DNA from: Oscillospiraceae bacterium
GTDB taxonomy: Bacteria; Bacillota; Clostridia; Oscillospirales; CAG-382
Length of the DNA: 64,000 bases
Assembly (NCBI GenBank): GCA_015063885.1
Contig: SVTH01000003.1
Coordinates: 62,001-126,000, forward strand
Reading direction: 5' to 3'
A program made the position numbers and the translations under genes. Position 1 is the stretch's first letter, and each line of letters opens with the position of its first letter. The notes below the pieces were generated by a model, which was not told the origin of the DNA, did no database searches, and saw only the letters and a list, made by a program, of their open reading frames with translations. Positions 20,789 through 53,858 of this stretch are shown in pieces.

Positions 20789-23161
20789 TTATTTCTTTCT
20801 GATGAACAGGATGACCACCACGGCCAGGGCGATCACCGCCAGGCCGCAAAGGAGGGTCCACCAGGGGAAGGAGCCGCCGTCCTCTACGGGAGCGGGCCGG
20901 GAGGAAGCCGCTTCCTTGGAAACTTCCTCGGATGCGGTGCCGGATTCCTCGGAGGAGCTGTCCTCACCCGGCTTTTCCAACGGCAGGAGGTAATCCCCGC
21001 CCTTGTAGGACTCCTTGGAGAACTTCTCGATGCGCAAAGCCAGCTCGATGTCCTGGAGCAGATAGGGATCGGCGGAATACTGCTTCATGCCGTCGTAGAT
21101 GGCTTGCAGGTCCTGTTCAAACAGGTCGCCGTAGGACTCGGTGTTGCCGTTTTGGCTCATCCAAAGCTCCAGACGTGCCTTGGCCATGCCCTTCAATGCC
21201 TCGACGCTTTCCGTCTCGTACTGGGTGAAGGACAGGGAGGGCTTTTTGAAGACAGTCTCGGCGAACAGGTCTGCGTAGCCGTGATCCTTGTAAGCGCCCC
21301 ATTCAAAGTAGCCGATACCATCTGCGCCGTGGATAGCGGTCTGGTTGGTCTGGAGGTACATTTCGTCGAAGGTCAGAGACAGGTAGGCACCGTTGCCCAT
21401 GATCAGGTAGGTTTCGTCGGTGAGGTAACCGGAGAACTTCTGAGTAGCGGTACCCATGATGCCTTCTGCGTAGGACATGGGGTAAATGGCGTCCACCCAG
21501 CCGTTCTTCATCCAGACGGAGCTGTCCTGACAATAAAGCTCCTTGCCGGTATCGTTGGCCACGGCGGCGGAGATATACAGGTCGGGACGGTAGGAACGGA
21601 TCATCTCGGTGAACTGCTGTACCCGCTGATGGATCAGGTTCACCTTGAAATCCACCCAACGATCCCACTGGGGATGGGCGCGGAGCTGAGTGGCGATCTC
21701 ATCCACCACGGATTCGTCCAGCCCCGTGGTCTGAGCAAACAGCTTGCGGGAGGCCTCGTCGTAGCCGTAGTCGATGTTGCCGTCGAAATAGGGGTAGCGG
21801 ATATAGTCGTACTGGATGCCGTCGATGTCGTAGTGGCGGACGATGTATTCCAGGTACTCCATCATGGCCGCCATAAAGTCCTCGTTGGCGGGAGAAGCGA
21901 AGGTCTCCGCAGTATCGGAGGGCTTGTTGGTGGTGGCGATCCAATGGGGGTTCTTTTCGGAGCCGCAGCCGTAGAAGGTGGGCACGGAGACCACAAGCTC
22001 CATGTCGTATTCCTTGCAGGCTCTCACGTAGACCTCCAGGATGTCGATACGGCGGGCACGGGAGTCCACGGTGAAGGGATGCTCGTCGGAGACCTTCACG
22101 ATGCTCTTGCCGCTGTCGATGACGCCGATGTTCAGCTGGTTGATGCCCACGCGCTTCATCTCGGCAACCGTCTCGAAGATGTCCTCTTCCTTCCGCTCCA
22201 GGGGAACGTACCAAACGGCGCGGACCTCCACGTCACGGGATTCGATCATGGAGCGGCGGATGGAATCCACCTCCTTCAGCATGGCGTCACGCTGCTCCAA
22301 GGTGGTGATGGAGGCGGGGTCAAGATCCGCAACGGCGTTTTCCAGGCCCTTGTAGTCGATGAGGCGGAGCTGGGACTTTGCTTCCTCCAGCTCCTGCTCC
22401 AGCAGAAGGATCTCTCCCTCCACGGTGGAGCCCAGCATGGTGTCGTCGTAGGTGACGGTGACAGTCATGCCGGAGATCACGCATTGTGCACCGGGGATGC
22501 AGTAGATCTTCAACAGGTTCTTGTCCTCCGGCTCGATGGCGGAGATCACGAAGCCCCCTGCGGGTACCTCGTTGTCGTTGCCGCCGGCGGAAATGACGTA
22601 GCCGTCTGCGTCTACCACCACCTCAAAGCCGTAGCCGTTGGTGCCGGTCTTGGTGCCCGCCTTGTTGTACACCACCAGGTACTGGGCGTAGCGGGGGGTG
22701 TTGTAGTGGGTGAAGGGAATGTCCTGCTCGTAGAAGGGATCCACTTCTCCCTTGGCGGCCAAACAGCGCATGCCGTATTCGTCGAAGATCACGTGGTCTC
22801 CCACGTCGATGCTCTCGTACATCTCCTGGCCCACGGTCCCGGTGCCGGAAAGCACGAAGCCTCCCACGGGAACGGCCAGGTTTTTACCTCTGGAGTCGCC
22901 GCCGGCGATCTTATCGGTGACGATCCCCTCGGGGCTCACCACCACGTTCCAGCCCCATTCGTTCTGCTGGGTGGTGGGTCTGTCCTTGTAGACGCACATG
23001 GTGTCCGCCCAGCGGGTGCCGTTGACGGAATCCACGGGGATGATAAGGGTGTCCCCGTTGGTGACCAGTGCGGAAGGAAGCACGGCCGCCAATGCGGTGG
23101 TCAGGGTGACAGCCGCCATCAGCGCCGCAAAAAATCTTGTGCGTTTGAAAAATCTTGCCAT
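20789..23161 (-). CDS. Membrane-anchored surface protein with glycosyl-hydrolase-like 10 (GHL10/DUF187) domain
   Basis: 790 aa from ATG 23161. N-terminal signal peptide (FFAALMAAVTLTTALAAVLP). Residues about 30-250 hold two similar modules around WGWNVVVSPEGIV...VPVGGFVLSG and YGFEVVVDADGYV...VPAGGFVIS. A coiled stretch follows. From about residue 313 comes a TIM-barrel-like region, EVRAVWYVPL...GINQLNIGV...DIDGIQYDYIRYPYFD, as in GHL10 putative glycosidases. Near the end, a Ser/Glu-rich linker, a membrane helix (TLLCGLAVIALAVVVILF) and RKK anchor it outside the cell. Longer upstream starts would pass over its promoter and are rejected. Substrate unknown. Confidence 0.82.
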   Translation of the reverse strand: MARFFKRTRFFAALMAAVTLTTALAAVLPSALVTNGDTLIIPVDSVNGTRWADTMCVYKDRPTTQQNEWGWNVVVSPEGIVTDKIAGGDSRGKNLAVPVGGFVLSGTGTVGQEMYESIDVGDHVIFDEYGMRCLAAKGEVDPFYEQDIPFTHYNTPRYAQYLVVYNKAGTKTGTNGYGFEVVVDADGYVISAGGNDNEVPAGGFVISAIEPEDKNLLKIYCIPGAQCVISGMTVTVTYDDTMLGSTVEGEILLLEQELEEAKSQLRLIDYKGLENAVADLDPASITTLEQRDAMLKEVDSIRRSMIESRDVEVRAVWYVPLERKEEDIFETVAEMKRVGINQLNIGVIDSGKSIVKVSDEHPFTVDSRARRIDILEVYVRACKEYDMELVVSVPTFYGCGSEKNPHWIATTNKPSDTAETFASPANEDFMAAMMEYLEYIVRHYDIDGIQYDYIRYPYFDGNIDYGYDEASRKLFAQTTGLDESVVDEIATQLRAHPQWDRWVDFKVNLIHQRVQQFTEMIRSYRPDLYISAAVANDTGKELYCQDSSVWMKNGWVDAIYPMSYAEGIMGTATQKFSGYLTDETYLIMGNGAYLSLTFDEMYLQTNQTAIHGADGIGYFEWGAYKDHGYADLFAETVFKKPSLSFTQYETESVEALKGMAKARLELWMSQNGNTESYGDLFEQDLQAIYDGMKQYSADPYLLQDIELALRIEKFSKESYKGGDYLLPLEKPGEDSSSEESGTASEEVSKEAASSRPAPVEDGGSFPWWTLLCGLAVIALAVVVILFIRKK

Positions 23162-23195
23162 AGGAAAATTCGTCCTTTCGGTGTTTCGTGGCACC

Positions 23196-23224
23196 AGTAT
23201 AGCACAGAAAAACGCTTTTGTCAA
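23196..23224 (-). promoter_or_regulatory. Promoter of the GHL10 surface protein gene
   Basis: TTGACA (23224-23219), 17-bp spacer, TATACT (23201-23196) on the minus strand, 34 nt before ATG 23161 with SD AAAGGA. Just upstream (to the right) lies the terminator of the small-RNA candidate. Two AAAAATCCCGC direct repeats lie at about 23230-23252. Confidence 0.85.
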
Positions 23225-23261
23225 ATCCGCAAAAATCCCGCAAAAATCCCGCTTTTTTCCG

Positions 23262-23467
23262 AAAAGAAAGAAACCTCCCCGCCGCAGGCGCCGGAGGTCT
23301 CTTCCCGAAGGGGCTCTTGTATAGCAATTCCGTTTGCAGGAGGCGCAGGAGAATTCCATGGCACGATCAACGCCCGTCTTGCAATGCGGCGGAGGAAAAG
23401 GGGTCGCTGTCCCATTCCCCGCCGGGAAGAACTACCGTTTTTTTGTAATAGTTAGCTTTTGCTAACT
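23262..23467 (-). ncRNA. Candidate trans-acting small RNA (about 200 nt)
   Basis: Minus-strand transcription unit with no convincing ORF. Promoter TTGACA (23502-23497), 17 bp, TATACT (23479-23474). Predicted 5' end near 23467 begins directly with a stem-loop AGTTAGC-AAAA-GCTAACT (23467-23450). Further on is an unpaired TTTTCCTCCGCC (CCTCC at 23395-23391), then AATTC/GAATT arms (23355-23351 and 23330-23326) holding a 20-nt loop with CTCCTGCGCCTCC. It ends in a terminator: ACCTCC...GGAGGT (23298-23273) with an inner CGCC-tgc-GGCG stem, then a T-rich tract. The CCTCC segments could pair with SD sites. It matches no RNA family I recognise: no SRP core and no 6S-like closing stem. Confidence 0.6.
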
Positions 23468-23577
23468 GCCGGTAGTATAGCATGGATCTTTCGGTTTGTC
23501 AAGGGGGAGAAGAAAAATTTTCCCTGCTTTTCCAAGCCGTTCCTCCCTTCACGCGTGTACGCGCGCGCGCACCCCAT

Positions 23578-23816
23578 CTCTAATCTATTCTTTATAGGTA
23601 CATGAATGTAGTTGTAGTAGTAGGGGTGGAAAATTTTGGTGGAAAACTTTTTTGCCCCTCTTTTTCCCCCCGACTTGGCGGAACAAACTCACTTCGAACA
23701 AGCGTTCTATTCCACAAAGAACAGGCGTTCTGCGCATTTGAAAAATGTGGACAAGTCCTTCTTCCAAGGGTGGAAAACACCATATGTTGTGCACATCCTT
23801 CCACAAGATATCCACA
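23578..23816. other. Cluster of DnaA-box-like sites beside TAG triplets (origin-like)
   Basis: Sites related to TTATCCACA or its complement: GGTGGAAAA at 23625, 23638 and 23769; TATTCCACA at 23708; TGTGGACAA at 23746 (8/9 match); CCTTCCACA at 23797; ATATCCACA at 23808 (8/9). Directly left of the first two is TAG-TTG-TAG-TAG-TAG (23609-23623) followed by GGGG, then an A+T-rich stretch (23578-23606). This order (A+T-rich, DnaA-trio-like triplets, G-rich, DnaA box) resembles the basal unwinding region of bacterial oriC. No dnaA/dnaN is nearby, so it is only a candidate. The rest of the 23503-23870 gap shows nothing else clear. Confidence 0.4.
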
Positions 23817-23870
23817 TGTAGTAAATTCCCCCATGAGACGAAAAAAGCGCAACTTTTGACGGAATAGACC

Positions 23871-23899
23871 TTGCTTTTTTTGGAAAAGGAGAGTATAAT
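23871..23899 (+). promoter_or_regulatory. Promoter of the two-gene exported-protein operon
   Basis: TTGCTT (23871-23876), 17-bp spacer, TATAAT (23894-23899), 36 nt before the ATG at 23935, which has the strong SD AAAGGAGGA. Confidence 0.75.
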
Positions 23900-23934
23900 A
23901 AAGGGGATCATTCCCTACCGAAAGGAGGACAGCC

Positions 23935-24318
23935 ATGAAGCGGTTGCCCATTCTGATCCTGATCTCTCTGCTGTTGACCGCCTGCGTGGTGATGGCGGCG
24001 TATCTGTTGATCTACCACCATTCCTACGAGCTGGAATACGCAGACCTGGATATCGACGAGACCACGTATGAAAACGGGGTGCTCACCGTCACCGTCAAGT
24101 CTGCCACGGCGGGGGAATTTCTTTACCGTATGATCGGTGCGCCCAACGATAAGGGGGAGTTTGAGCTGACCTTCCGCGGAGGGAAGCAGGGTGCCCTTGC
24201 CCAGACGCCCGGAAAGTATTCCGCCACCTTCACCGTGGAGGTACCCGAGGAATACAAAAAGGTGGTCTGCGGGAAATCCACCATCTATACCATCTCTGAT
24301 GAAGAAGGAGAAGATTAA
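23935..24318 (+). CDS. Small membrane-anchored or lipoprotein, unknown function
   Basis: 127 aa. Start MKRLPILILISLLLTACVVMAAYLLIYHH: a hydrophobic segment with a possible lipobox LLTAC (Cys17), but the hydrophobic run continues after the Cys, so a plain membrane anchor is just as likely. The outside part (YADLDIDETTYENGVLTVTV...) looks like a beta-rich domain of about 90 residues with no known motif. Its stop directly abuts the next gene's ATG, so the two are co-translated. I do not recognise a family. Confidence 0.75.
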   Translation: MKRLPILILISLLLTACVVMAAYLLIYHHSYELEYADLDIDETTYENGVLTVTVKSATAGEFLYRMIGAPNDKGEFELTFRGGKQGALAQTPGKYSATFTVEVPEEYKKVVCGKSTIYTISDEEGED

Positions 24319-24867
24319 ATGAAGAAGACTTTACTGCTGTTGCTCCTCTGCGCTTGCACGGTCCTGATGGCAAGCTGTAACAAGGCACCCGTGGACGAGA
24401 CCCTGCCCGAGGGCTGTCTCCGCGCGGAAAACGACGCAACGGATTTCAATTTCTGCTATCCCAACACCTGGACCGTCGACCGTAACGACGGGATGATCTC
24501 CATTAAGACCAACGTGGGCAAGAGCGGTACTCTGGCATACGCCACCGTTTCCGTACAGGCCTACACCATGGAGGATTCCACCATGTCCGCGGGAAATTTC
24601 TGGGACGCCCATAAGGCCGATCTGGAGGATCTTTACGGGGAGAAGCTGGTGATCGAAAAGGAAAAGGAAGAGACCGAGCTGGCGGGAAATATTGCCGCAA
24701 GAGCCAAGTATTCCATCAAGCTTTCCGATATGACCTACGTTTTTGAGCAGATCATCTGCGTGCGCTACGGCGTGGCCTATATGATCACCCTGACCGCTCC
24801 CGAAGGTACCTACGAGACCGCCGCCCCCGGGTTGGAAACGGTGATGACCTATTTCGTGTTTGAATAA
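24319..24867 (+). CDS. Lipoprotein, PsbP/Mog1-like fold suspected
   Basis: 182 aa with a clear lipoprotein signal: MKKTLLLLLLCACTVLMASC, lipobox MASC with Cys20. The mature part has FNFCYPNTWTVDRNDGMISIKT, the 'F..P..W' start typical of small secreted PsbP-like domains, and ends in TAPEGTYETAAPGLETVMTYFVFE, the usual final helix-strand of that fold. Another, distantly similar lipoprotein is at 40795-41421 (TFPEGWTQ). Function unknown. Second gene of the operon starting at 23935, followed by an intrinsic terminator. Confidence 0.78.
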   Translation: MKKTLLLLLLCACTVLMASCNKAPVDETLPEGCLRAENDATDFNFCYPNTWTVDRNDGMISIKTNVGKSGTLAYATVSVQAYTMEDSTMSAGNFWDAHKADLEDLYGEKLVIEKEKEETELAGNIAARAKYSIKLSDMTYVFEQIICVRYGVAYMITLTAPEGTYETAAPGLETVMTYFVFE

Positions 24868-24890
24868 AAGTATTGATTGATATGACGAAG

Positions 24891-24916
24891 CCTCTCCCGA
24901 AAAGGAGAGGTTTTTT
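24891..24916 (+). terminator. Intrinsic terminator of the 23935-24867 operon
   Basis: CCTCTCC-cgaaaa-GGAGAGG followed by TTTTTT, 23 nt after the stop codon at 24867. Confidence 0.92.
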
Positions 24917-24939
24917 CGTTTGGGGAATGGGGAGAAGCC

Positions 24940-25415
24940 ACGCAGGGAGGGTGGTGTGAATTTCGTCGTGTCGGTGCACGCAGGGTGGGTCGCCGTGGAC
25001 GTCGACCCCTACGAATACGCAATAACGGTTGCGAAGGGGCATGCCGAATTCCACGCAGGGAGGGGGGTGTGGATCCGTTGCGCCGGTGCACGCGGGACGG
25101 GTCGCCGTGGACGTCGACCCCTACGAATACGCAATAACGGTTGTGTAAGGACATGCCGAATTCCACGCAGGGAGGGTGGTGGAATTTCGTTGCGCCGGTG
25201 CACGCGGGGCGGGTCGCCGTGGACGTCGACCCCTACGAATACGCAATAACGGTTGCGAAAGGGGCAGGCAGAATTCCACGCAGGGAAGGGCGGTGTGAAT
25301 CCGTTGCGCCGGCGCACGCAGGGCGGGTCGCCGTGGACGTCGACCCCTACGCATACGCAATAACGGTTGCGAAGGGGCATGCCGAATTCCACGCAGGGAG
25401 GGTGGTGGAAATAAC
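24940..25415. repeat. Tandem array: four 112-114 bp units with R palindromes
   Basis: The core CGCCGTGGACGTCGACCCCT recurs at 24991, 25103, 25215 and 25329. Each unit also carries ACGAATACGCAATAACGG and GAATTCCACGCAGGGAGGG. Frames on both strands are open through several units and give repeated peptides; I regard none as a gene. Confidence 0.9.
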
Positions 25416-25480
25416 GGTTATTACGGTGTCCTGATTGCGGGAGAGGAGGTTTGGCTTTTCACCCCACGCTTCCTTCGTGA

Positions 25481-52902: not shown

Positions 52903-53442
52903 TTAATACTTTTCCACTTTCTTCTGGAAGTATGCCTTGGGGTGTGCGCAAACGGGGCACATCTCGGGGGCGGCTTTCCCTACGTGTACGTGGCCGCAGT
53001 TGGTGCAGAGCCATACGCAAACGTCCTCGGAAACGAAGATCTTCTCGGTCTGCAGCTTCTCCAGAACCGCTCTGTAGCGAGCCTCGTGCTCCTTCTCGAT
53101 GGCGCCTACCATTTCGAACAGCAATGCGATGTGGGTGAAGCCTTCCTCACGGGCGTCCTTGGCAAAGCCTGCGTACATATCCGTCCACTCGTAGTGCTCT
53201 CCTGCAGCCGCATCCTCCAGGTTGGTGGCGGTGTCGGGAATGCCGCCGTCGTGGAGAAGCTTGAACCAGATCTTGGCGTGCTCCTTCTCGTTCTTGGCGG
53301 TCTCGGTGAAGACGTCGGCAAGGAGGGTGTAGCCTTCCTTCTTTGCCACGGAGGCGTAGTAGTCGTACTTGTTACGCGCCTGGGATTCCCCTGCAAAAGC
53401 CGCAAGCAGGTTCATTTCGGTTTTGGTGCCCTTCAGTTCCAT
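52903..53442 (-). CDS. Rubrerythrin family protein
   Basis: Diiron peroxidase protecting anaerobes from H2O2. 179 aa. The four-helix domain carries the metal ligands in [33 protein letters not shown], and [15 protein letters not shown]. The C-terminal rubredoxin-like domain has [10 protein letters not shown] and [11 protein letters not shown] for one iron. Complete on both counts. It starts 32 nt after the perR-like gene with SD AAAGGAG, so both share a transcript. This pairing (PerR with rubrerythrin) is typical of anaerobic peroxide defence. Confidence 0.93.
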
Positions 53443-53474: not shown

Positions 53475-53858
53475 TTATTGTACTTGTACTTTTTTTCCTT
53501 TGGCCTTGCAGGCGGGGCAAATGCCGCGGATGTTCAGTTGGTAATCCAGCACGGTGATCTCTCCCCTGGATTCCAGAAGCTCCTTCAGCCCGCCGAAGGT
53601 GATGTCCACCAGCTTGCCGCATCCGTCGCAATGGAGATGCTCGTGGGGGATCATGTTGCGGTCGTAACGGTCGGGGCCGTATTCCGTGACGATCTGACGG
53701 ATCTCCTTGTCCTCCACCATCAGCCGCAAATTGCGGTATACCGTCCCCAGCGCGATGGAGGGCATCTCCGCCTTGGCGTAGCCGAAGATCTCGTCTGCGG
53801 ACAAGTGCCCTTCCGTATTCATAATGATCTTGTAGATCAACTGTCTTTGTCTTGTCAT
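53475..53858 (-). CDS. perR: Fur-family repressor, PerR type
   Basis: 127 aa. Winged-helix N-terminus: MTRQRQLIYKIIMNTEGHLSADEIFGYAK, then SIALGTVYRNLRLMVEDKEI (recognition helix). Metal sites: HEHLHCDGCGK and, near the end, GICPACK, giving two CxxC pairs for structural zinc. The gene partner (rubrerythrin) and short length favour PerR over Fur or Zur, but the oxidisable His cannot be proved from sequence alone. A small inverted repeat, AATAG-TTC-CTATT, lies in its 5' leader (53875-53887) and may be its own operator. Confidence 0.85.
   Translation of the reverse strand: MTRQRQLIYKIIMNTEGHLSADEIFGYAKAEMPSIALGTVYRNLRLMVEDKEIRQIVTEYGPDRYDRNMIPHEHLHCDGCGKLVDITFGGLKELLESRGEITVLDYQLNIRGICPACKAKGKKVQVQ

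Follow-up and report, generated by a model that had tools for sequence, protein, structure and literature searches.

What does a minus-strand promoter-to-terminator unit with no credible ORF produce, and what switches it on? The unit lies in the window, by which we mean the whole 64 000-nt stretch of an Oscillospiraceae genome (contig SVTH01000003.1) that was analysed. A preliminary description took its product for a trans-acting small RNA (sRNA). Its sequence lends good support to a small RNA that is transcribed separately, while a trans-acting role by pairing to Shine–Dalgarno (SD) sites is predicted as the most likely reading. Our preferred interpretation, which we think probable but by no means certain, is that the unit is the gene for an iron-starvation sRNA working like FsrA, IsrR or RyhB.

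A predicted short transcription unit with its own terminator

The unit proved real, with a minus-strand promoter TTGACA-17-TATACT that scores 11/12, a terminator with a T-rich tail, and no credible ORF in about 190 nt (Table 1). Some 150 nt lie between operator and terminator; the terminator stem is of 9 + 4 bp and its tail is TTTCTTTTC. All six possible starts within the transcript were checked: none has an SD site, and five run through the terminator. A small-protein reading is ruled out by the lack of an SD-led start codon. The predicted product is thus a short non-coding transcript with its own terminator, as in the iron-responsive sRNA class. About 100 nt beyond the terminator, on the same strand, follows a gene for a GHL10-like protein, whose own promoter (promoter 2) is equal in strength to that of the unit.

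Against Rfam, the window RNA has no match at gathering score, and the sole match at E ≤ 10 is an unrelated ctRNA (E 1.1). The preliminary description had judged it not to be 6S RNA, correctly: 6S RNA (RF00013) is excluded, the 6S RNA of this genome being found elsewhere, on contig C3.

Table 1. Features of the predicted sRNA unit and its surroundings (window coordinates)
Feature	Position	Strand	Basis or remark
Second promoter TTGACA-17-TATACT, serving the downstream GHL10-like gene, outside the unit	23196..23224	-	Kept in relatives
Predicted non-coding RNA	23262..23467	-	About 205 nt, including operator-derived 5′ hairpin and terminator
Intrinsic terminator GAGACCTCC-GG-CGCC-TGC-GGCG-G-GGAGGTTTC with T-rich tail	23262..23301	-	Sequence and fold
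Second anti-SD segment CTCCTGCGCCTCCT, partly unpaired	23338..23351	-	Fold ensemble
Internal hairpin GGCGGGGAA..TTTTCCTCCGCC, first CCTCC mostly in stem	23388..23423	-	Fold ensemble
18-bp palindrome AGTTAGCAAAAGCTAACT, feoAB-type operator over the expected start site	23450..23467	.	Sequence comparison
-10 box TATACT	23474..23479	-	17-nt spacer from -35, TG extension just before
-35 box TTGACA	23497..23502	-	Promoter search and sequence inspection

The palindrome as a feoAB-type operator

The predicted 5′ end carries a stem-loop that had been taken for an RNA hairpin; sequence comparison suggests that it is better explained as a palindromic DNA operator common to feoAB promoters. In the window, GTTAGCAAAAGCTAAC starts 7 nt after the -10 box, within the 18-bp palindrome AGTTAGC-AAAA-GCTAACT (23467-23450). 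This is the sole exact copy of AGTTAGC-N4-GCTAACT in the genome, and two-mismatch versions stand, among other places, at the feoA promoter and the feoA–feoB gap (FeoA and FeoB of this genome are confirmed by Pfam). Among 80 related genomes, GTTAGCN4GCTAAC occurs at 119 sites in 52 genomes, compared with 5 sites for the reversed control; feoA or feoB adjoins the operator at 23 of the 30 loci inspected in relatives. Other genes behind it encode FecCD permease, ZIP, HMA (heavy-metal), DUF3793, DUF2325, AhpC and ABC transporter proteins. Of 394 genomes from the order, 140 have the combined pattern of promoter and operator, and the control hits none; at most feo promoters the palindrome starts 7-10 nt past the -10 box. 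The N4 loop varies freely in sequence across sites, as in DNA operators.

Since the same operator stands at feoAB with the same spacing to the -10 box, the window RNA is most likely iron-repressed. Iron control of the window promoter is a well-supported prediction, the metal response being read from the operator-linked genes, and the unit has what is expected of an iron-responsive sRNA gene, the operator of an iron-uptake regulon at its promoter.

The genome has one DtxR-family gene, on contig C9. The only Fur-family gene detected lies within the window (53475-53858, minus strand) and is followed by a rubrerythrin gene (52903-53442, minus strand), a PerR-like arrangement. A rubrerythrin neighbourhood is the usual place for PerR, and judged by this neighbour the sole detected Fur-family gene is PerR-like. 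This assignment, together with the half-site TTAG, makes the DtxR-family protein the candidate regulator; by the half-site and elimination of Fur, it is probably the operator's repressor. Our literature search found nothing that names the GTTAGC operator together with DtxR and feoB.

Several further operator sites deserve mention. In the same genome, the promoter of a gene for a copper-type P-ATPase contains a degenerate palindrome, AGTTAGC-N4-GCTTACA (L082; G000:C22:23601), and in other genomes the full operator stands at HMA genes resembling this one (L110, L143 and L170). Between a third operator-promoter of this genome (G000 contig C17:59072-59128; L003/L098) and a gene resembling diaminopimelate dehydrogenase come first a T-run and then another promoter; the operator-promoter perhaps yields a very short RNA or places that gene under iron control. 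DUF3793 and DUF2325 proteins stand repeatedly directly behind the operator across the order (L096, L134, L156, L195, L158, L262 and others), which suggests roles in iron metabolism for these uncharacterised families. At L127 (G049:C7:4757), the gene directly behind the operator reads as pyruvate formate-lyase or a relative, so a metabolic switch at low iron may belong to the regulon.

Other short RNAs behind the same operator

We fetched 98 more promoter-operator sites and screened them for a terminator before any SD-led ORF; some candidates were picked by eye. At least 11 other operator-driven, ORF-less, terminated short RNAs were found, spread over six families besides the window's own and one other genus of the window's family. 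The clear loci, with a terminator before any credible ORF, are L126/L219/L270/L271, L209/L210, L164, L256, L174 and L201, from genomes G049/G229/G166 and G264 (one RNA in two genera), G042/G137, G308, G345, G343 and G029; L244/L245, from G221/G230, are weaker. At none of these sister RNAs did Rfam give anything above gathering score.

Several sister RNAs are C-rich and complementary to SD sites. With one RNA taken per family, the anti-SD 5-mers CCTCC, CTCCT and TCCTT, a set chosen after the preliminary description had named CCTCC, occur 13 times; dinucleotide shuffles hold 3.7 ± 2.1, and not one of 2000 reaches 13. Four of the eight RNA families contain none of them, so that the window RNA and three others account for the signal. 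Leaders of feoA-like transcripts hold 0 such 5-mers in 2032 nt. Conservation of the C-rich loops with changing flanks had been proposed as support for the sRNA; it is seen in another of the operator-driven sRNAs, but not in the window RNA. In that sister RNA, of the G049 set, four species from two genera share an identical AATCTCCTTCCT, with CUCCUUCCU invariant, whereas the spacer and terminator stem diverge; the operator is kept, with one mismatch in two species.

We propose tentatively, with a little less than even confidence, that within this order of Clostridia a non-Fur iron operator has come again and again to drive short RNAs that are unrelated and turn over fast, and that several of these converge on C-rich anti-SD segments. 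They would make up a recurrently born iron-sparing class, of which the window RNA would be a young, species-level example.

The locus in related genomes

The window RNA is known from one species, so conservation cannot serve as evidence for it. It is missing at the locus in three genomes of the same genus (G010, G003 and G004). In all three, the downstream gene, its promoter 2 and the intergenic sequence upstream are retained; G010 and G003 also have the divergent 127-aa gene, and the downstream protein of G010 has 92% identity. Relatives that keep the neighbouring genes and lack the unit had been named beforehand as contrary evidence, and these three are literally such relatives. To judge from genome comparison, however, their lack of the unit shows a putatively lineage-specific gene, not a lack of function; the window RNA may have arisen recently, or relatives may have lost it. 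A search for its DNA homologues in 60 relatives returned only promoter-like or short stretches, and in plasmids, phages and viral contigs it returned none. Named relatives of the GHL10-like gene come from Clostridia MAGs of the ruminant gut (sheep rectum, yak colon and water buffalo cecum).

The surroundings (23161-23935) are a variable spot, in which L023, L025 and L024 hold different ∼100-bp repeated elements in place of the sRNA unit. Beside the locus, at 24849-25434, are tandem frame-like repeats (RRGRRPLRIRN... in several frames) that look like dispersed non-coding repeats.

The unit might instead have arisen by recent insertion or duplication, as an iron operator-promoter with filler that is transcribed in iron starvation but has no function of its own. 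The absence from three close relatives, the other inserts that relatives carry at this variable spot, and an anti-SD excess that is moderate for the window RNA by itself (four anti-SD 5-mers, P ∼0.01 against shuffles; CCTCC twice, P ∼0.03) all speak for such an origin. We nonetheless consider it unlikely, as promoter, operator and terminator are all complete, and the same architecture turns up again in several lineages, one of which conserves it.

Rather improbable, too, is an iron-controlled leader that adds conditional transcription into the GHL10-like gene, with the hairpins and terminator as a cis attenuator. The shared strand and the short distance from terminator to gene would suit it. 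Yet the gene has its own near-consensus promoter past the terminator, relatives retain that promoter and the gene without the unit, and the predicted full-length ensemble of the window RNA contains no alternative antiterminator fold.

Predicted fold and pairing to SD sites

The window RNA folds more stably than its shuffles (z -2.7; 0/200 shuffles). It has CCTCC at 23391-23395 and at 23339-23343, and a third copy within the terminator stem. Both of the CCTCC segments of the preliminary description are therefore present, but they are more paired than it claimed. The first, supposedly unpaired, is placed mostly in a stem by the predicted ensemble (unpaired probability ≤0.02 at 4 of its 5 bases). 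The second had been assigned to a 20-nt loop closed by AATTC/GAATT; that sequence exists and folds locally, but the full-length ensemble mostly pairs the stretch elsewhere. In target prediction on a 464-kb sample with 351 crude start regions, duplex energies of the window segments average -23.7, stronger than the -20.1 of shuffled segments, but the result is not specific, and the top predicted targets, under crude gene calling, have no visible bias to iron proteins.

This extensive pairing of the CCTCC segments, in an RNA that is larger and more structured than its sisters, would accord with an iron-regulated unit that acts otherwise than by SD pairing, for example as an RNA sponge or a protein-binding RNA; we regard this as very unlikely, because the set of operator-driven RNAs is enriched in anti-SD motifs, and one of its members keeps them invariant. 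It is more improbable still that a trans-acting sRNA stands outside iron control and that its palindrome, which if transcribed is predicted to fold into a stable 7-bp hairpin, merely stabilises the RNA at its 5′ end, given that many genomes have this palindrome at feoAB and further metal genes, with an equal distance to the -10 box and a control near zero, and that its loop varies freely, as for a DNA operator.

Proposed mechanism and its significance

In the iron-starvation sRNA model that we favor, an iron-sensing repressor, probably the DtxR-family protein of contig C9, would occupy the palindrome over the start site when iron is plentiful and block transcription, as expected at feoAB. Under iron scarcity the promoter would open and an RNA of ∼200 nt would be made, ended by its own terminator. 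Its C-rich anti-SD segments CCUUUUCCUCC and CUCCUGCGCCUCCU would then pair with ribosome-binding sites and lower the synthesis of iron-using proteins, an iron-sparing response.

Strict gut anaerobes depend heavily on iron-sulfur enzymes. The occurrence of unrelated short RNAs behind the same switch across the order suggests small-RNA shutdown of iron-using proteins when iron runs out. With the operator defined here, such RNAs and the iron regulon can be sought by a simple genome search in hundreds of uncultured species; sister loci in more complete genomes are better test cases than the window.

Comparison with known iron-sparing RNAs

No iron-sparing RNA of this bacterial group appeared in the literature searched; the paper on the Clostridioides difficile iron regulon mentions small RNAs only in its reference list (PMC6311696). 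The preliminary description compared the unit with RsaE-type RNAs. Because the 5′ stem-loop is a feoAB-type operator, the iron-sparing RNAs FsrA, IsrR and RyhB are closer parallels. RoxS uses C-rich regions for pairing with G-rich ribosome-binding sites (PMC12871923); RsaE/RoxS resemble the window RNA in such regions, but there is no sequence match, and the operator ties the window RNA to iron.

In FsrA of Bacillus subtilis, a C-rich motif pairs to SD sites (PMC9410917), and FsrA works without Hfq (PMC12871923). It shares with the window unit a promoter that has an iron operator and a short non-coding product that has C-rich segments; FsrA is Fur-repressed and iron-sparing. Membership of the FsrA family was rejected, as there is no sequence match in Rfam and GTTAGC-N4-GCTAAC is by inspection unlike a Fur box; FsrA is also shorter, at 84 nt compared with about 200 nt. 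IsrR of Staphylococcus aureus is iron-repressed and Hfq-independent, with 174 nt and three C-rich regions (PMC9410917). It is similar to the window RNA in length and in having several C-rich regions, but has Fur boxes and is conserved across its genus, whereas the window RNA has no counterpart found in the closest relatives and no match in Rfam.

IdeR is a DtxR-family regulator. MrsI of Mycobacterium tuberculosis, a species without Hfq, is an iron-sparing sRNA predicted to be under IdeR (PMC9410917). It thus parallels the window RNA in its link to a DtxR-family regulator, which for the window RNA is a prediction, and, it would seem, in the lack of Hfq, although its lineage is unrelated. RyhB of enterobacteria is Hfq-dependent and Fur-controlled (PMC9410917). 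The likeness here is one of logic, an iron-repressed RNA that lowers iron-using proteins; RyhB needs Hfq, whereas no Hfq gene was found in the window genome, which is 85% complete. RyhB, PrrF, MrsI, FsrA and IsrR have neither sequence nor synteny in common (PMC9410917). If our reading is right, the window RNA would work like these known iron-sparing sRNAs, from outside the Rfam sequence families and under a different operator.
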